From assembly GCA_905220665.1 (NCBI GenBank), contig CAJNAR010000006.1:62001-126000 (forward strand): a stretch of 64,000 nt of DNA, written 5' to 3'. Made by a program: the position numbers and the translations under genes. This DNA is from Albugo candida. Its lineage: Eukaryota > Oomycota > Peronosporomycetes > Albuginales > Albuginaceae. Positions 7,010 to 18,961 of this stretch are shown one piece after another (within the stretch, counting starts at the first letter, position 1; every line of letters starts with the position of its first letter). Below the pieces are notes generated by a model, which worked only from the letters and a program-made list of their open reading frames with translations, was not told the origin of the DNA and made no database searches.

Positions 7010-7799
7010 AGGGCATTAGTCAATTGATCGAACGGGTGTAAAAAAAGGCTGATACCTAAGAGTCATTAGCTGGCGAGTCCTAAGTGCGGCGTGTAATTTG
7101 CATTGTCAAACACGCAAACTATACAGGAGCTGAAGAGTATGTTCAGTATAATAACCTGCAAATACAGAAGGTCCCTACTGATTGAATTGGACAGCACTTC
7201 AACGCATCGTACGAAGCACTACCTCTCAGAACCGTATACGAGTCATAGTGGGCTCACACTGGCAATAGTGTAGAGTCGGACGACTTAACAAGACATATAA
7301 AATAGCACACGCTCCCATTCGGAGTACGAGACTCACGTCCTACTCGAAGGAATACTAGCCCCTCACCTGCACTACAACAATACTGCGCGCTCCCTCGACA
7401 CGGTTTGAGTGCGTATTCGATCAATACGCCAAGAAGGGCCCAAGTTGACTTTATAATAGCGATCTATTCAAACGAAAGCATCGGGACTGCTTGTAGACAG
7501 CTAAGGTTCCACCAAAAATCACTGCGCGACATTCAAATGTTACAAGACGGCTTTCAGGCAGAGTGATTGCAATCACATCAATTTCGATCGCTCTTAGACC
7601 AAATGACGTTAATTGCCTCGTATTACCGTACTCACGGTCCCTGTATGATCGTCAACGCGATCAATACTGCAACTCAGAAGAAAGCTAGAAATGAGTATCG
7701 AAAGTTCAAAGCTGTAAGGAAATAGATCAGATTGGTTGAAATGTTACAATCTGCTTATGATTGGCTATCTGCTCGTGTCGAAAGCACCTCTCATTCGAA
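7010..7799. other. intergenic, no gene recognised
   Basis: No open frame of note on either strand, no repeat matched elsewhere in the window, no RNA gene recognised. It may include the 3' end of the F-box-like gene and the promoter of the uL13 gene. Confidence 0.4.
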
Positions 7800-8228
7800 A
7801 TGGTTCGCAGTCAAATCGCTAATGCTTCTAAAGTTTGTTGGCATGTTGTTGACGCTAAAGGGCAAGTAGTAGGGCGTTTAGCGTCCCAAATAGCTCCAAT
7901 CTTGTGCGGTAAGCATAAACCAACTTACGCTCCTAATGTGGATTGTGGCGATCATCTTGTTGTTATCAATGCCAAAGACCTCGTGTTCACGGGAGATAAA
8001 TGGAATCAAAAGCTATATCGATGGCACACTGGGTATCCTGGAGGGCTGAAGCAAAGAACCGCTAAAGAAATGTTTGAGCGAAAACCGGAAGAAATTCTTC
8101 GCAAAGCTGTTTACGGGATGCTGCCGAAAAATAAAATGCGCAAACTACAGATACAAAAACTTAACATTTTTCTAGACGATGAACATGAACTTCACGATAA
8201 AGTAGGCTCCAGTCCAGTCATTCTGTAA
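7800..8228 (+). CDS. MRPL13: ribosomal protein uL13, bacterial/mitochondrial type
   Basis: A 142-residue protein of the large ribosomal subunit. The family pattern is clear: WHVVDAKGQVVGRLASQIA, then GKHKPTYAPNVDCGDHLVVI, NAKDLVFTGDKW, YRWHTGYPGGLKQRTA, EEILRKAVYGMLPKNKMRK and LNIFLDDEHEL. This is the short bacterial-type uL13, so in a eukaryote it most likely serves the mitochondrial ribosome. An in-frame stop lies just before the TTG at 7761, and the first ATG is at 7800, so 7800 is taken as the start. No long targeting presequence is present; import may use internal signals. Confidence 0.92.
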   Translation: MVRSQIANASKVCWHVVDAKGQVVGRLASQIAPILCGKHKPTYAPNVDCGDHLVVINAKDLVFTGDKWNQKLYRWHTGYPGGLKQRTAKEMFERKPEEILRKAVYGMLPKNKMRKLQIQKLNIFLDDEHELHDKVGSSPVIL

Positions 8229-9464: not shown

Positions 9465-12400
9465 ATGGTACGTGCGCATGTACGCCGGCTGCACACACGT
9501 AACTCACTGTAATTTACCGTGTAGCCACCTAAAGCTGTCATTCCTTTGCGACAACGTCGGACAACCGTCAAAAAGATCAAATATGCAGAAGATGAATTAT
9601 CAGACGGAGAAAAAGAAGAATATGCCGAGAAACGCAAAAAAGCTCGTCAGCTCGAGTATCAAACACGACAAGTTTGTACACACTTCTTATTCCCAATAAC
9701 GCGAAATTTACCTTTTGCAACGTGTAGGATACTGGGTACCCGCTCTTAGATCAAATAGTTGGTCGTCGAATCAACAAACACAACGGCCTTGTGGAGTATT
9801 TATGTAAATTTTCGGGTCGTTCCTATTTGCATTTATGGTGGCTCTTATTTGAGGAAGTCGAACTTTTTTTTCCGGAAGGATATCAAAACTTTCACCGAAT
9901 TCAAACATTTGACCGCAAAATGCGTCGTGAAGGGTATCAAGATATAGAGGATGTTGATGAACTTGAGGCTGGAAAAATAACCGTTGAAAAAATATTGAAT
10001 CATAAAGTAGATCCAATGGATCATTTGGACCAAGCAATTGAGACGCGCCGTGCACAGGTACCATCCAAAACACGATTTCCACGAGTAACAGACGCATTCC
10101 TCATCGAACATGCCGATACCGTCCATGAACGAATGTCAGCTCTCGTCAAAAAGCTCTCCAATGAACATGGAGGTGACCTCTTTCGTCAACCTGTTGATAC
10201 CAAGTATGTATTCATTCTCACAAGGTATCATTTCTCACAATACTCACCCTCCGTCCTGCAGCCTCGTCACCGACTACCTCCAAATCATTCACAATCCAAT
10301 GGATCTAGGGACAATTGGCTCTCGTCTTGCCCGGGAGAACTATTACATCGGTCCATCTGCCTCCACTCTGTTCGCTTCCGACGTCCGACTCATTTTCGCC
10401 AATTGCATGCAATACAACGCAGAAAAATCAGATATTTGGATCATTGCGTCGCAATTATCAAAGTGTTTTGAGAAATGGATGTACGACTGGATCCTGTGCC
10501 CCAGCGCGTGGCTCCAATTCCTACAAATGAACTCTCCGAACACGAAACAGCAACAAGATCGCTACGCTCGAGCTGAGCGAACCTTTACAACTTGGGCGCC
10601 TTGGGAAAGCGGTTGTTTCGTTTGCCATAGCCCCAGCGACAGCGACAAACTCCTTTTATGTGATCGATGCGATGGAGAAATTCATATGTTTTGCACATCG
10701 CCGGCGATCACGAAACTGCCCGAAGGCGAATGGCTGTGCTCCTTTTGCTGCGTGCGAAAAGAATTTGAAGCAAAGTCAGACCGTCCGCCTCGAAAGAACG
10801 ATAAAAGGAGCAAACGAAAGGCCAAAGAGACATTACATACCTCTGAATTCCCTCGGATGCTGACGGAAATGATCGATACGGAACGGAAGCATAACGCTCG
10901 ATCGCCGACTGCCAAAGCGACACAAGCGTCCGATACGAAGGCAACGTTCTTTCTGGTCAAATGGTTGGGCCTATCGATCCGATTTTCGACGTGGGAACGA
11001 CCCGAGGATATCGGTGACGATGAAGAGATCCAACGATATTTCAAATTCGCTCGCGTTCCAACAGCGAAAGAGATCGCAGAGACCACGTGTCAGCTTCCGT
11101 GCTGTGCGAAACGGAATCAGAACTCACATTCTCAGCCACGAAATTGCTGTGCCAAAGATCGATTCTGCACACTCGGACACATGCACGAAGGCGAATGCAG
11201 TCGAGAAATCAAGCGACACGAGCAAAATGCCACGTACGGGACGCAACAGTATCGAATTTGGCAAATGACGGAACAGATCAAAGCACAGCTCTTCGCGCTA
11301 CATTGTCTATTGAACAACCACACACCAAATCCTCACGTCTTGAAGCAATGTGGCGCTCGAACGTATGCGTTTGTGTGTCGGAAAGAGCTTTTAGTCGCGC
11401 CATTGAACGCTCACGACGAAGAGGAAGACGAAGAGTACGCGGTGGAGGAATCCAGTTCCGATTCTTCCGAAGACGAAAATGAAGGAATCGATCAAGAAGA
11501 AATGGAGCTTGTTGGGTCTTCTTCCATCGTACCTGACGCAACTGTGGAGAATGGTGTCATTCCGAGTAAAAAAAAGGCGAGTGTCCATGTGAGTGAGGTC
11601 GTTGGATGTATGGTCGAACACATTGCGTTTGGGTATCCTTGCGACTTGGAAAAGGTGCAAAGGCGTGTACGACGGAATGCAGCGTTCCCACCGGTGCTCA
11701 CAGGCAATTTGGAAGCGTACACAGAGTACGGAGTCACATTACGTCGCTCTCCTTTCGGTCTCGGAATGCGTCTCGGAGTCGCTGATAACGGGAGTACATC
11801 GGTGTTGGGCTTCCAGCAGTTGTCTAACGGTATGATGGGACCCGCTCAAGCGGCACAAGTGATCAGTATTGGCGATGTGTTGGTGGCTGTGAACGGCACA
11901 GCCGTCGCGGGAATGGGATTTAAAGATATCATTCAGCTGATCGCTCGTTCGATTGATTTCGTGACGCTCCATTTCCATACAAAAGCACGACCCGCATTGG
12001 CATTCCCTCCCTTCTGTCAAGCTCGTTTGGTCGTTTGCATGGACGACAGTCAGACGCATGAGGAAGCGATTCCTCGTTCTCGGTATATCCCATTCAGCTT
12101 CCAAGAGTATCATCCGGTGCTTCAGGTCGGAGGGAAGCGCGAGCCACACGCAGTAGACACTCAGCCTGCCGCGTTTGTGACGCCCAGTGGCCCCATGCAG
12201 CATCTGTACGCTGCCGTAGTAGACAACAGCATCGATCCACATGAGCATTTCGCAAGTTTTCTTCCCAATAAACCGAAAACAGCTTTGCCACACAAATTGG
12301 AAAAAGGTGATTTTATTCCGTACGAACACTCGCCGACGTACAAAGGCGGACGCACGTTGCGTTCGTATCAGGTCGATGGACTGAATTGGATCATCTCGTG

Positions 12401-15389
12401 CTGGAAAGCCCAACGCTCATGCATTTTAGCTGACGAAATGGGTCTCGGGAAAACGATACAAGTGGCTGCATTGCTGGAACATTTCAAGTCGGAAGAGAGT
12501 ATTCGTGGCCCGTTCTTGATTGTGGTCCCGCTGTCGACGATTCAGCACTGGCGACGTGAGCTGCAAGGCTGGACGGACCTCAATGTGTGCGTGTACCACG
12601 ATATCGGCGATCGACAGAACCGCGGGTTCAATTCCAAAGACATGCGAGCAATGATCCGCATGCACGAATGGTATTACTCGAATCTCGGGAACAGCTCCAT
12701 ATTCCGTTTCCACGTGCTTCTGACGACATTTGAGACGATTTTGGCTGATTTTGAAGAATTCGAATCGATTCATTGGCGTCTTTTGGTTGTGGATGAAGCA
12801 CATCGATTGAAAAGCGCAGGCTCTCGCGTCCTCAAGCAAATGCGTGTGTTACATTGCGATCGCAAGCTCTTACTCACCGGCACACCGCTTCAAAACAATA
12901 TGCAGGAGCTTTGGGTCCTTATCAATTTCTTGGAGCCCGTCAAATTTGCGAGCTTTGAGGATTTCGATGCGAAATTCGGCCGTTTGCAATCGCACGAGCA
13001 AGTTGTCACACTTCAGAAATTGTTGGCACCGTACGTTCTCCGCCGCGTGAAAGAAGACGTCGAGAAGAGTATCCCGCCAAAGGAAGAAACGATCATCGCT
13101 GTGGAGCTGACAACGCTTCAGAAACAGTATTATCGCGCCATTTACGACAAAAATCAGAGTTTCTTGTATCGCGGCATCCAAAATGGGCTTCCACGGCTTG
13201 TGAATATTCAGCTGCAGCTTCGGCAATGTTGTAATCATCCGTTTCTCATCAAAGGCGTCGAAGATCGCGAGTTGTCGGAACTTGGTTTTGAACCTTCTGC
13301 TGATCAAATTATGGACAAAACGATTCAGTGCTCGGGGAAATTCGTTTTGGTGTCGAAATTGCTTCCAAAACTCAAACGGGAAGGTCGTAAAGTGCTCATT
13401 TTTAGTCAATTTCTCAAACAATTGGATCTGTTGGAGCGATATTGCGAGTATCACGGCTTTGGGTACGAGCGGCTAGACGGATCAACCAATGGAGCTGCTC
13501 GTCAGGCTTCCATCGATCGGTTCTCTCGTCCCAATGCGAAATCGTTTGTGTTTTTATTGAGCACGAAAGCCGGTGGTGTTGGAATCAATCTCATTGCTGC
13601 GGATACGGTCGTCATCTTCGACAGCGATTGGAATCCCCAAAACGATCTTCAGGCCCAATCGCGTTGTCATCGCATCGGACAGAGCAAAACGGTGCAAATA
13701 TATCGCTTGGTGACGCGAAATACGTACGAGAGCGAGATGTTTGAACGTGCTTCACAAAAGCTCGGTCTTGAGCATGCGGTTCTCGGCTCAGGCTCTTTCC
13801 ACGACGGCGTACAAGCCAATAAACCAAGTGCCCAGGAACTGGTGGATTTGCTCAAGAAAGGCGCATACGCTTTGTTGGAAGACGATCAAGCGTCCAAGCA
13901 ATTCGCTGAGCGCGATATTGAGACAATACTTCGTGAGAACGCGCATGTATGCAAAACGAATGCGGATCATCGGATGCAGAAATCGCTGGCTGGTATCGCT
14001 GTGGATCGGTCGTCTTTCGTCGCTGATGGATCGACAGGCGAATTGAGCGTCGACGATCCGAATTTCTGGGAGAAGGTATTGCCTGGCGCCATGTCTGTAG
14101 AAATGTTGAGCATTCAATTGGAAGAGGGGAGCGCGTATGCCACCAATGAGTCGAAAACAAAATTTATTGGAAAATTGGGTGTCGCATTGGACGCGTTGGT
14201 GATCGATAAAAGCAGCGATTCTCGTATCGGCGTCGAGCGGGAATACGATCTCGCAATCCAAGTGCTGCATCGAATCAGTACGAAATTGAGCAAACATTTC
14301 TCGCGACAGCAATTGACGATAGTGGGGACGTATCTCTCACGTTTGGAGAAATCGCGTGTGCGCTCGTGTCGGACATTGGGAACGCCGGAATCGCGTCGAC
14401 GGGAGAATGGAGCCGTTGAAGAGATCAAAAAACGAAAACGGACGATCAAAGCTTCTCGAGCGAAACCAATGCAAATGATCCCAGAGACTGATGATTTGTG
14501 CACATTGTGTGGCGATGGAGGTCTGATTCTTTTCTGTGACGGTCCTTGTCATCGCTCGTTCCATCTGGAATGCATCGGAATGACGCAAGAGCCGCAAGAT
14601 GAGCAATGGTTGTGTCCCGATTGTAAGGCTGGAAAGCATATGTGTTTGCTATGCAAACAGGTTGGTGAAATGGGCGTTGAATTCGGTGTGTTACAATGCT
14701 CCATGGCGCGTTGTGGTCGTTTTTACCATCGTGGATGCCTGGAGACTGATCGACATGTGGAATGGGTCGGGAAAAAACGATTTCGATGTCCAAGTCATTT
14801 CTGCCATCAATGCAAAGAGCGGAAGCGACCACGTCACTCGACCATCGTTAGCTGTTTGCATTGTGCCCGAGCGTTCCACGCGGATTGTATTCCTTCCAAC
14901 GATAACGTCCGACTGTCTCGAGGCCTTATGATCTGCTCCAAACATGTAAAAAATGGGCAAATTCGAGCTGCTACAGAAAAAGTGTGTGAATTGTGTAATC
15001 GGGAAAATGGAGCCTTCGTCGAGACTCCTGTGCGTGTGGACAAAGCGACTCAGCGGGTAGCCGTGCATGTGGAATGTGCTCGTCACTCGGAGCATGTGTA
15101 TGTGAATAAACACGGAAGCTATTGCAATTTGGCACGCGCAATCAAACGATCTCGACAGGTGAATTGTGGTCGATGTGAGCGCGTGGGCGCCACTGTGCGT
15201 TGTCACGGAGATAATTGTCAAATGTTTCATTTGCATTGTGCTCAAGAGGATGGCGTCTTTGTGGACTCTCGGTTCTATTGCAAGGTGCATCAGCCTGTGG
15301 TCGATAGGCAAGAGGAACATAGCGAGCAAACCGATGATCGACGTAAAAGCCTTCGGAATCGGAAAAAACGCAAAGGCTCGGGTGAATGA
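9465..15389 (+). CDS. SNF2-family chromatin remodeller with bromo, PHD, chromo, PDZ and C-terminal PHD cluster
   Basis: Nuclear ATP-dependent remodeller of about 1,911 residues. Exons: ATG at 9465-9467, then 9525-9675, 9750-10203 and 10262-15389; introns keep frame. Order of modules (rough residues): chromo-like 52-85, bromodomain 175-285 (YLQIIHNPMDLGTIGSRL), PHD finger 320-366 (CDRCDGEIHMFC), chromodomain 429-463 (VKWLGLSIRFSTWERPEDI), acidic stretch, PDZ 697-772 (GLGM loop, GDVLVAVNGTAVAGMGFKDI), SNF2 ATPase from about 900 (Walker A DEMGLGKTIQ, Walker B VVDEAHRLK), helicase C 1236-1346 (DWNPQNDLQAQSRCHRIGQ), then PHD fingers from about 1612 and an extended PHD near 1777-1879. The ATPase most resembles the CHD branch. 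The readers should bind acetyl- and methyl-histone marks; the PDZ may bind a C-terminal peptide of a partner. A fusion artefact is unlikely because the last exon is open across 5.1 kb. Confidence 0.93.
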
Positions 15390-16418
15390 TTATCGTCGCA
15401 TTGTGTGTGAGTAGTCTTGAAGCTTTTGAAGATCGGATGCCACGTGAGCGTCAAAGTATGGCCGCCAGAGAAGTCGATAGAGAAAGCTGTGTGGGAATGG
15501 AACAAGTGCTCTGGCTTTGGTTTCTTCGCTTTGTCCGCCCAAGGCTTTTATGTGGTGTAGAATCCAAGGCACGACGATGCGTTTTTGTCGAATGGAAAAG
15601 AATAGTGGACGGAGAATCATTGTTTCTGACGTGACCGACTCCAACGCGGGCGCCAATTCGCACTCTTCAACAGTACACACGCTCACGAGTGTGAGAGTTA
15701 GCGTGCGGAGGTCGTGTTGTATGGTACTGATATGTGACATCCAGGCTTTCTCTTCCACTCGTTTATGAGCCTGCATGTGTCCAATGTGAGCGTCCAAAAG
15801 TGTGTTAGCGTCTTTAATCTCGTCGAGGACGTCGGATGAAATATCATTACCAACCATCGGATACAGCATCTTCCATTTGATGTCACGCTGCGAATTGAGG
15901 AAATCTGTGAATGCCGCAATTACTCGATACATTCGCTTCAGCAATTTGGGAGTTTCAGAACTCGTTGAATGGATTTGAATTGCTGTGAGAAATTGATCCA
16001 TCACAAAGCATGTGTGACGCATTGGCTCATGAAGTTGCAGTAAAAGTCGACCCGCCCAATTCGAAGAGTTTGGATCCAATACGATCGAATAAATGAGACT
16101 TTCACGACATTTGCGTGGCGGCTGAGCCTCTGGTGGGAAGGTCGATGTCTTTGAGGCTGTTTCAAGCCAATTGGAAGGGACGGATCGCATCGATTGTGGT
16201 GTGAGAATGGGCAGCATCCAAATGTTGACAGAAAGCATTCGTTGTGGCGCGGCGTAAGCGGTGGCAAAGTCTGTTTGTGCGGTAAGGAAGTAAGCGACTT
16301 GGGTGATATCAATGAATTTCAGGCTTTCCCGCGCGTTTTTTGGCATTTTCCAGAGATTGGGATACAATGCAAAGCCCAAAGGTTCCGAAGTTGCCTTTTT
16401 AACGCGTTGACAATACAT
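15390..16418 (-). CDS. hypothetical protein, mostly helical
   Basis: A single-exon frame of 342 residues from ATG 16418, not recognised. The middle is helix-rich, with spaced His and Glu (LLLQLHEPMRHTCFVMDQF, TLLDAHIGHMQAHKRVEEKA, SVCTVEECELAPALESV), loosely recalling hemerythrin-like four-helix bundles, but the metal-ligand spacing does not fit. The last part is rich in aromatic and basic residues. No signal peptide or membrane segment. Its stop codon (15390-15392) directly abuts the stop of the remodeller on the other strand. It lies 97 bp downstream of the PGP phosphatase gene on the same strand. Confidence 0.6.
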   Translation of the reverse strand: MYCQRVKKATSEPLGFALYPNLWKMPKNARESLKFIDITQVAYFLTAQTDFATAYAAPQRMLSVNIWMLPILTPQSMRSVPSNWLETASKTSTFPPEAQPPRKCRESLIYSIVLDPNSSNWAGRLLLQLHEPMRHTCFVMDQFLTAIQIHSTSSETPKLLKRMYRVIAAFTDFLNSQRDIKWKMLYPMVGNDISSDVLDEIKDANTLLDAHIGHMQAHKRVEEKAWMSHISTIQHDLRTLTLTLVSVCTVEECELAPALESVTSETMILRPLFFSIRQKRIVVPWILHHIKALGGQSEETKARALVPFPHSFLYRLLWRPYFDAHVASDLQKLQDYSHTMRR

Positions 16419-16515
16419 TTCGATCGATTTTTAATTGAGAATGAATGCGATTGGATTGTAGAGTGTGAGTTCTTTTTCAAGAGATTGGAGGGTTCTATTT
16501 ATAGCGACGCGGGTA

Positions 16516-17319
16516 TTAGCGGATGTGCGGGACGCTGGACGCCGCACGCCTGCACGCTGAGGACGCATTTCTTTTCGAGTTTTTGCAAAAAGAGGTTTCC
16601 GAGTGACTCACCTTTGCGTGTGAATGGATCCGTTCGGATTGTTAGCATTCCTGTGGCGTGAGTGAGTGATTGTCAGGAGGAAGATTGACGGTATACCGTT
16701 TAAATTGCCGAATAAGACGTCGGTGGAATAGCGATCGCCAATCATAACGAGCTGGTGTGACGAGATTGGATGAAAATACGCACGAACGGGATCGATTCCT
16801 AGCGGTTTCTAAGCGGATGTGATGAGTAGAGAAATTGAAGTGATTTGAGATAATGGGAACCTTTGTGTGATGGCGGAGAACGGGGATGTGGAGCTCGGAT
16901 TCGATCTGATTGGCTTCGTCAAAATTGGCATCCCCGCTGGAGCCAGCGGAATTGGAGAATATGACAATGCGGTCACGGAATAAGTCTTTGCATTCATTTA
17001 TTGCGTCCTACATGGAAGATTGGAGAAGGATAGGGAGAGAGGAGAGGAAGCTTGTGATGACCTGGTATTCGGATCGTAATATGCGCTCATACGGAACGGT
17101 GAGCGTGTTATCTTTGTCAATGATGAGGCCGCGGAACCCAAGGCGCTTTATCGTTTGAAAGGGAATGTCGCTGAACGCTGAAGGCGGAAATTGGATATGA
17201 GCCAATGTGAAAGTACATGCGCGAGGAGTTATTACATTGGTAGGAAAAGTGCGGGAGGAGCAGCGCAGGATCACAGCAAAGAGCTCGACAGAACGCATGA
17301 ACTCCATGCAAATTGACAT
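16516..17319 (-). CDS. GEP4: phosphatidylglycerophosphate phosphatase, GEP4/PTPMT1-independent HAD type
   Basis: Makes phosphatidylglycerol from phosphatidylglycerophosphate in mitochondrial cardiolipin synthesis. The HAD nucleophile motif is clear: LGFRGLIIDKDNTLTVPY. Later exons supply RIVIFSNSAGSS (motif II), HIPVLRHHTKKPLGID with the lysine, LVMIGDRYSTDVLFGNLNG (acidic motif) and MLTIRTDPFTRK, all typical of the yeast Gep4 family. Five exons, start ATG 17319; intron 1 is 17008-17061, the others lie near 16850, 16700 and 16590 by splice-site reading. The last exon ends at 16516 with a basic tail. It is divergent from PRP31, with 136 bp between start codons. Confidence 0.88.
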
Positions 17320-17455
17320 TTTTCATTTTACCCAACCAGAATAGTTAGCTTTTATTTGCATCCAATCGTATTGCACCGACTGCAATGTTAGGAGTAAAAG
17401 ACAATTCTACAATGTTGACGTCATTTATGTCAGAAATCTCATCTGATACAGTCCA
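17320..17455. promoter_or_regulatory. shared upstream region of GEP4 and PRP31
   Basis: Only 136 bp separate two divergent start codons, so both 5' leaders and core promoters must lie here or inside the genes. No TATA or initiator element can be named with confidence. Confidence 0.4.
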
Positions 17456-18961
17456 ATGTCGTCGTTGGCAGATTCTTTCTTAGAAGATCTCGATGAGCTG
17501 GGTAGCGGTAGCAGTGGTGATGAGGAAGAGACCAACCAAACAGTAGAAAATCTATCAACACCCCCGGTGGAATCCTCCGCAAGGCCTCAAAACAGCTCCT
17601 CTCACAAACCAACCAATAATAAGATAGAGACCTCAAAAACTGGTGGAAAGCCGCAACTTCACAAAATTGCCACTCTAAAGCGATCAGAAACGTATCTCAA
17701 TCACATCCAAACTATCGAAAAGCACTTTACGGATGGAAAAGAGCAATTGCAATCACTTTCCATGCAGAAAGACTCTGAAGAATATGACTTAGTGGTCACC
17801 TCAAACGATCTCATGGTGCAAATTGATGACGAGATTGCAGCCATTCATCGCTTCTTAATCGAAATGTATGCACCCAAATTTCCAGAACTCGAATCGCTGG
17901 TGCCGAATGCCTTGGATTACGCACGCGTCGTCGAGCGAATTGGAAATGAGACGGATATGACGCTAGTTGATTTGGCTTCATTGCTTCCTAGTGCGACGGT
18001 CATGAGTGTGTCTGTGACCGGTTCGACTACGAGTGGAAAACCGCTTCCACCGGATGCACTTGAAATTTGTATGGAAGCCTGTAAAGAGCTTTTCGACCTT
18101 GAAAAGGATAAGATTATGATCCTGGAATTTGTCGAATCTCGAATGCGATTTCTCGCACCCAATGTCGCTCAACTCGTTGGGACACGAATAGCAGCGCAGC
18201 TGATAGGGCTAGCTGGCGGTGTTTTGGAGCTGGCTCGCATCCCTTCGTGTAATTTGCAAGTTTTAGGACAGCAAAAAAAAGTTCTGAGTGGGTTTTCTTC
18301 AGCTGCGGCTTTGAAGCACACTGGGATCATTTTCCATTGTGATCTCATCCAAAATGTTCCTCCGTATCTCCGGATCAAAGCCTGTCGAGCTCTGGCTGGT
18401 AAAACAGCACTTTGTGCGCGCGTTGATAGTGACCAAAATGCATCGGATCCTGACGGACAAGTTGGTGCTCAACTTCGTCAAGATCTGATCATAAAGATGG
18501 AAAAATGGCAAGAACCTCACAAAGCCAAAAGCAAAAAAGCCTTACCGGTTCCAGACGAGAAACCACGACGAAAACGAGGAGGGAAGCGTTATCGTAAGCT
18601 AAAAGAGCGACTTCAGATGACTGATGTTCGTAAGGAACTAAACCGTAGATCGTTCGCAACCGCAGATGAAGAATACGGTGATAATGCGATGGGCCTCACA
18701 GCAGGAAGATTGGGTCAAGAAGGCTCGGGGAATCTCCGAATCTTACGTAAAGAGCAGAAACAAACAGCAAAAAAACTTAAGGCAGCAAGTTTTGCTGCTG
18801 CTAAACAGCCTCTGTCTGGGCTTTCATCTTCTTTGGCATTCACTCCCGTTCAAGGAATTGAATTAATGAATCCAGAGGCAGCTACAGCGCGAGTGCGTGA
18901 AGCAAACAAAAAGTATTTCTCTGCTGATAGCGGGTTTGTTAGCATAGTCAAGCAACCATAG
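17456..18961 (+). CDS. PRPF31: pre-mRNA splicing factor PRP31
   Basis: U4 snRNP protein needed to assemble the U4/U6.U5 tri-snRNP. A single exon of 501 residues from ATG 17456 is close to the family's usual length. It has the acidic start (MSSLADSFLEDLDELGSGSS), the NOSIC/NOP-domain core (FPELESLVPNALDYARVV, LSGFSSAAALKHTGIIFHCD, PPYLRIKACRALAGKTALC), the basic linker (KPRRKRGGKRYRKLKERLQM) and the Prp31 C-terminal motif (RLGQEGSGNLRILRKEQKQT). The GIIFHC segment matches the part of the NOP fold that recognises the U4 k-turn with protein 15.5K. Nothing looks broken. Confidence 0.96.
   Translation: MSSLADSFLEDLDELGSGSSGDEEETNQTVENLSTPPVESSARPQNSSSHKPTNNKIETSKTGGKPQLHKIATLKRSETYLNHIQTIEKHFTDGKEQLQSLSMQKDSEEYDLVVTSNDLMVQIDDEIAAIHRFLIEMYAPKFPELESLVPNALDYARVVERIGNETDMTLVDLASLLPSATVMSVSVTGSTTSGKPLPPDALEICMEACKELFDLEKDKIMILEFVESRMRFLAPNVAQLVGTRIAAQLIGLAGGVLELARIPSCNLQVLGQQKKVLSGFSSAAALKHTGIIFHCDLIQNVPPYLRIKACRALAGKTALCARVDSDQNASDPDGQVGAQLRQDLIIKMEKWQEPHKAKSKKALPVPDEKPRRKRGGKRYRKLKERLQMTDVRKELNRRSFATADEEYGDNAMGLTAGRLGQEGSGNLRILRKEQKQTAKKLKAASFAAAKQPLSGLSSSLAFTPVQGIELMNPEAATARVREANKKYFSADSGFVSIVKQP

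Follow-up and report, generated by a model that had tools for sequence, protein, structure and literature searches.

A PDZ domain in a CHD-like chromatin remodeller of Albugo candida: a candidate docking site and a possible ancestral link with an AP2-like domain

The stretch of DNA analysed here, referred to as the window, comprises 64,000 nucleotides of the oomycete Albugo candida (contig CAJNAR010000006.1, positions 62,001 to 126,000). It encodes a putative chromatin remodeller in which a PDZ domain is placed between histone-reading modules and an SNF2 motor. From its conserved binding loop, the PDZ domain is probably a docking site for protein C-termini on a CHD-like motor, a reading given a probability of roughly 0.55. 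Oomycetes harbor a second remodeller of this kind, here termed paralogue B, in which the PDZ is followed by an AP2/ERF-like domain, and the tandem recurs in proteins outside the oomycetes, including one of Ectocarpus. The bare oomycete layout has been in print since 2014; its ancestry and the link with an AP2-type domain seem to be undescribed.

The gene had been set at 9465..15389 in a preliminary description of this DNA, and both ends are confirmed by an ATG at 9465 and a stop codon ending at 15389. The final 5.1 kilobases were likewise found to be one exon, open from 10262 to 15389, and splicing together with Pfam matches confirms that the readers, PDZ, SNF2 and helicase C lobes and PHD fingers described earlier are housed in one protein. 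A single transcript across the gene may be assumed, because exon 4 is open and homologues hold the domains in one protein. The public Albugo candida model, numbered P0001 in a first homologue search (best 120 of 344 proteins), exceeds the Pfam cut-offs for SNF2 (262 bits), helicase C (86.7), bromodomain (59.0), PHD (56.1), PHD_NSD (48.6) and chromodomain (42.0). Two NSD-type PHD families lie above cut-off, with a third at 26.8 against 27 bits. Among Protein Data Bank (PDB) sequences the motor is closest to CHD1 (best match, 459 bits). As in CHD1, CHD4 and CHD6-9, two chromodomains (the first slightly under its Pfam cut-off) precede the motor; unlike in those proteins, they are not in tandem, a PDZ is present and the C-terminal domains of the subfamilies are missing, with no CHD1 HTH, CHDCT2 or BRK among the P0001 Pfam matches at E<=0.05. 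The protein would accordingly be CHD-like rather than a canonical CHD, because a bromodomain and a PHD finger separate its chromodomains. To our knowledge, a layout with a PDZ is not found in textbook CHD, ISWI or SNF2 remodellers. The earlier view of the architecture as non-standard holds in that sense, although the layout itself had already been printed for an oomycete in Table 2 of PMC4030286, discussed below.

The PDZ domain occupies residues 702-778 of the spliced protein by Pfam bounds, or 683-789 by a family profile, in keeping with the 690-775 proposed earlier. A predicted model of the region is confident and finds structural matches to PDZ domains, so the fold is supported by prediction as well as by profiles. 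Among 24 aligned members (the window protein, 11 oomycete-type and 12 other proteins), PF00595 matches 20 and PF17820 matches 22 at E<=0.01. Another explanation would be that the PDZ-like sequence is due to chance, or that the gene is split and the PDZ belongs to another transcript. The Pfam score lends this some colour, at 22.9 bits for the frame of the long exon and 22.7 for P0001 against a cut-off of 23.2, while a 110-residue fragment alone scores 28.8 bits and passes. Against it stand the single open 5.1-kilobase exon, the confident model with its structural matches, and homologues in which PDZ and motor share one protein; on these grounds the explanation was rejected as highly improbable.

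The case for docking lies in the pocket. Of the 120 proteins, P0001-P0045 are taken as oomycete-type, nine of these 45 being assigned by similarity. Pocket residues could be compared in the 96 of the 120 with a suitable BLAST match, 44 oomycete-type and 52 other. All 44 oomycete-type rows retain a G-L-G-hydrophobic loop (fourth residue Met in 41, Leu in 2, Ile in 1), the -4 residue that precedes it is basic throughout (Arg in 36, Lys in 8), and the residue at alpha-B1 is Phe. The predicted fold, loop and basic residue at -4 are shared with PDZ domains of the PSD-95/DLG/GRIP type; the Phe at alpha-B1 and the chromatin motor as host set the window PDZ apart. Class I PDZ domains carry His at alpha-B1, and a hydrophobic residue at this position is suited to ligands whose -2 residue is hydrophobic. 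By these classes, the Phe at alpha-B1 suggests that the oomycete PDZ would suit such ligands. The 12 positions assigned to the pocket have a mean entropy of 0.24 bits across the 44 rows, compared with 1.13 at 74 others, and the PDZ of the two Albugo species is 99% identical against 74-78% in the flanking linkers. With the loop intact, the tether to a partner's free C-terminus proposed in the preliminary description is plausible.

Several observations weigh against docking, or restrict it. Some of the 12 pocket positions also belong to the core, and low entropy is no proof of binding. Among the 52 other rows, 40 have Met or Leu as the third loop residue and 39 have Ile or Val at -4. With loop and -4 residue altered in most of these rows, docking of the canonical kind may be limited to oomycetes. 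When the window protein is aligned globally with diatom P0051 and with P0067, PDZ identity (23-25%) is no higher than that of the linkers (21-25%), though both PDZ domains are detected by local alignments and the family profile. Moreover, no ligand was found among the C-termini of 44 D-type (the type of the window protein), 24 B-type and 20 other proteins. Docking of the paralogues through their own C-termini was considered and set aside, as suitable tails are not general, a weak test given that several gene models are partial. Most D-type C-termini in Phytophthora and downy mildews are acidic (TDE-like), most B-type ones are basic (KRS-like), and the QLI ending of P0042 and P0043 is not general.

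The same observations bear on a rather unlikely alternative, that the PDZ has a structural or gating role, packing on the ATPase or chromodomains and tuning activity without binding any C-terminus. In CHD1 a chromodomain wedge gates the motor. A fixed position would suit such a role, and the PDZ is N-terminal of the motor in all 44 oomycete D-type rows that carry it and follows chromodomain 2 in the six proteins compared (window, P0043, P0051, P0067, P0072 and P0101). That most of the other 52 rows have a changed loop, and that no obvious ligand was seen among the C-termini compared, also favours gating. It is opposed by the loop and basic residue kept in 44/44 oomycete rows, and by paralogue B of Albugo, whose PDZ-AP2 unit (residues 137-321) lies far N-terminal of both the second chromodomain (662-698) and the motor, for which reason the unit appears movable. 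Docking is still the preferred reading.

The PDZ domain is spread across the relatives of the window protein. By the family profile, which was trained on some of the surveyed rows, it is present in 44/45 oomycete-type rows, the exception, P0045, being a short gene model that starts downstream of the PDZ position, and it exceeds 25 bits in 57/75 other matches, though weakly (26-33 bits) in P0092, P0096 and P0108. Named carriers are oomycetes, the diatoms Thalassiosira, Entomoneis, Mayamaea, Nitzschia and Seminavis, and Ectocarpus; the wider domain search proposed earlier thus finds the PDZ in further oomycetes, in diatoms and in one brown alga. None of the seven named non-stramenopile matches among the best 120 of 344 carries it (Phycomyces, Cunninghamella, Histomonas, Chromera, Hydra and two from Amphiprion); these rank low and were matched at the motor end, and the stramenopile specificity suggested earlier, although consistent with this distribution, is unproven. 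The order in diatom P0051 is HMG box, bromodomain, PHD, chromodomain, PDZ, SNF2, with no AP2; an HMG box precedes the bromodomain of the same core in P0067 as well, and in P0096 the motor is followed by a CXXC zinc finger. Searching with Ectocarpus P0072 yielded three relatives in addition to the query. P0094, a chromodomain SNF2 protein, carries a C-terminal PDZ (residues 1274-1336, 36.5 bits); close to its N-terminus lies a PDZ_2 match that fails on its own. The protein is apparently another, separate PDZ-remodeller fusion.

The layout was tabulated previously in Table 2 of PMC4030286 (BMC Evol Biol 2014 14:101), where Phytophthora infestans PITG_03401 is given as chromodomain-containing protein (D) with [Chromo], Bromodomain, PHD, Chromo, [PDZ], SNF2, helicase C and a PHD set, brackets denoting matches that some species lack or show below significance. 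The window protein, whose matches include P0034, a D-type protein of P. infestans, is likened to it by this shared printed layout. PITG_10083, chromodomain-containing protein (B), is the second PDZ remodeller, entered with [PDZ, QLQ] and without AP2. In that paper PITG_03401 is listed among dating candidates and PDZ is mentioned twice, both times in table rows; in PMC3145265 no mention of PDZ, CHD or bromodomain was found. A search covering few subscription papers found no further paper for either PITG tag, and among the papers listed none recognisable by title or start of abstract as dealing with these proteins.

The Albugo counterpart of PITG_10083 is paralogue B (locus L001). It shares with the window protein a CHD-type motor and a PDZ found by the D-type profile, and differs in that the PDZ precedes the chromodomains and has an AP2-like domain and a QLQ match after it. 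In L001, two chromodomain stretches and SNF2 exceed the Pfam cut-offs, with N-terminal matches below them (PDZ_2, 20.9 against 27 bits; QLQ, 16.1 against 23.8). A D-type PDZ profile built without B-type rows scores 41-68 bits on B-type proteins (Albugo B, 62) and at most 49.7 bits on any PDB sequence, a comparison that weighs less for common descent in that it was made with PDB sequences and not with other oomycete PDZ proteins. An AP2-like stretch adjoins the L001 PDZ. Pfam AP2 scores 16.5-17.6 bits on Albugo B against a cut-off of 33.3, and 11 of the 18 AP2 alignment members match it at E<=0.01. A profile of these 18 rows, six of them B-type, has five PDB matches at E<=1, all AP2/ERF (best WRI1, 3.3e-15). 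Prediction of the PDZ-AP2 region of paralogue B was of low confidence (predicted local distance difference test score, pLDDT, 60.9), and among the 50 structural matches listed for this model PDZ domains fill the list and no AP2 appears. The AP2 identity thus draws on sequence profiles.

The tandem itself, new here, is consistent. All 24 B-type proteins from a third protein search have PDZ then AP2, separated by 29-34 residues, and AP2 follows PDZ in 13/75 other first-search matches, with gaps of 22-34 residues in eleven and of 68 and 76 in two. In 12 of these 13 the precomputed Pfam column lists bromodomain, chromodomain and PHD, the remaining one, P0059, being a fragment; Ectocarpus P0072 reads bromodomain, PHD, chromodomain, PDZ, AP2, SNF2. 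B-type and Ectocarpus-type proteins align across both PDZ and AP2. Profile searches found no AP2 in the window protein or in any of the 45 oomycete D-type rows, and no remnant above 10 bits in the linker of P0001-P0045 or the window protein.

The origin of the module was approached through motor trees. For the first, 46 motors were chosen by the analyst from 145 proteins and 8 loci, with P0060, P0119 and Albugo C18 excluded beforehand for motor length; Albugo C155 (L008) is in neither tree. Oomycete D (100/100), oomycete B (100/100) and a diatom plus Ectocarpus type (100/99) are each well supported, and P0094 lies outside the group formed by B and D. The second tree, under a mixture model, retained 37 rows after removal of nine with long branches (P0109, Chromera P0112, P0107, P0113, P0094, Albugo A (L003), C16, C154 and C32); here B groups with D-type (99/97), and within D-type the oomycete motors pair with the diatom/Ectocarpus type (95/92). 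The PDZ-AP2 module may be older than the B/D duplication, as the tandem is shared and B and D are sisters in the 37-row tree. On the simplest reading of these sequences, PDZ-AP2 would have been gained once, before B and D split, AP2 would have been lost in oomycete D and in diatoms, and the position would have changed in one line. A single origin is weakened by several points. In the 46-row tree the three groups unite at 98/93 only together with the PDZ-less Chromera P0112, P0107 and P0113, without resolved inner joins; oomycete D with other D-type receives only 51/8; and B with all D-type is not rejected (p 0.10), but neither is oomycete D with B alone (p 0.15). In addition, the 37-row tree dropped PDZ-less rows, which favours a single origin.

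If the module is ancestral, the PDZ of the AP2-less oomycete D copy could be what remains of a PDZ-AP2 module for DNA targeting, with little function left. AP2 is present in 0/45 oomycete D-type against 24/24 B-type proteins and 13/75 other matches, as such decay would predict; this alternative is nonetheless improbable, given the constraint seen in the PDZ-to-linker identities of the two Albugo species and the invariant G-L-G loop. A wider proposal, made tentatively, is that PDZ-AP2 is an ancient stramenopile targeting cassette for CHD-type remodellers, in which the PDZ docks a C-terminus and AP2 contacts DNA, linking motor, histone reading and sequence-directed recruitment. Individual lineages would later have lost or relocated some of its parts, and in oomycetes it would have been split between two paralogues.

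The coordinates of the gene, its domains, paralogue B and the neighbouring frames are collected in Table 1. The spliced protein has 1917 residues compared with 1898 in P0001, which matches the encoded protein at 100% over the query region. The three introns are GT-AG, of 57, 56 and 58 nucleotides, and their removal puts chromodomain 1, both bromodomain parts and the long exon in one frame. The first 330 residues agree with P0001 except for the first few and one Tyr/Phe difference; P0001 starts with MVRAHPPK, which fits an exon 1 donor a few bases further on. The final residues also differ, P0001 ending in YCKPSESEKTQRLG as an alternative to the window reading at about 15280-15389. This looks like the effect of an extra intron close to the stop in P0001, which would account for the different C-terminus; that of A. 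laibachii P0002 agrees with the unspliced window reading, not with P0001. The convergent frame abutting the remodeller stop has no Pfam match at E<=0.01.

Table 1. Positions of the remodeller gene, its exons and domains, the second Albugo paralogue and neighbouring frames (window numbering unless another contig is named).
Feature	Position	Strand	Basis and remarks
Whole gene	9465..15389	+	ATG to stop codon, own splice; public model P0001
Exon 1	9465..9467	+	Own splice; start from sequence only
Exon 2, charged leader	9525..9671	+	Own splice
Exon 3	9728..10203	+	Splice, Pfam; chromodomain 1 and initial part of bromodomain
Exon 4	10262..15389	+	Remaining bromodomain to protein end
Chromodomain 1	9749..9889	+	Pfam, weak, 24.2 bits, cut-off 25.1
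Bromodomain	10136..10451	+	59.0 bits; intron 10204-10261 inside; converted from P0001 numbering
PHD finger 1	10614..10748	+	Pfam
Chromodomain 2	10932..11045	+	Pfam
PDZ domain	11739..11969	+	Pfam bounds; structure modelled on 11679-12008
SNF2 ATPase N lobe	12366..13244	+	Pfam, PDB sequence search
Helicase C lobe	13338..13679	+	Pfam
PHD finger, NSD type 1	14490..14627	+	Pfam
PHD finger, NSD type 2	14631..14798	+	Pfam
Variant NSD-type PHD finger	14802..14948	+	26.9 bits, cut-off 27
Paralogue B, locus L001	G000:C160, 294-5438	-	Pfam and profiles
Ribosomal protein L13 match	7761-8225	+	Pfam
Convergent open frame	15393-16430	-	346 residues stop to stop
Partial mitochondrial PGP phosphatase match	17011-17322	-	Pfam
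Nop/Prp31 splicing factor match	17447-18958	+	Pfam

Taken together with docking as the preferred reading, the protein would use a CHD-like motor to remodel nucleosomes at the expense of ATP, and its bromodomain, PHD fingers and two chromodomains would, by their families, read histone marks. The PDZ between chromodomain 2 and motor would dock the free C-terminus of a partner, which may bring the motor to its site or keep the complex together. An early stramenopile CHD-type remodeller would have held the PDZ-AP2 module before duplicating; the window-type oomycete copy would then have retained the PDZ with its loop and dropped AP2, and the other copy has the two domains ahead of its chromodomains. 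PDZ domains are familiar chiefly from scaffolds of membranes and cell polarity. A conserved PDZ in a chromatin motor may provide a handle on remodeller partners in oomycetes, diatoms and brown algae, and the PDZ-AP2 pair of paralogue B and Ectocarpus suggests recruitment to DNA.

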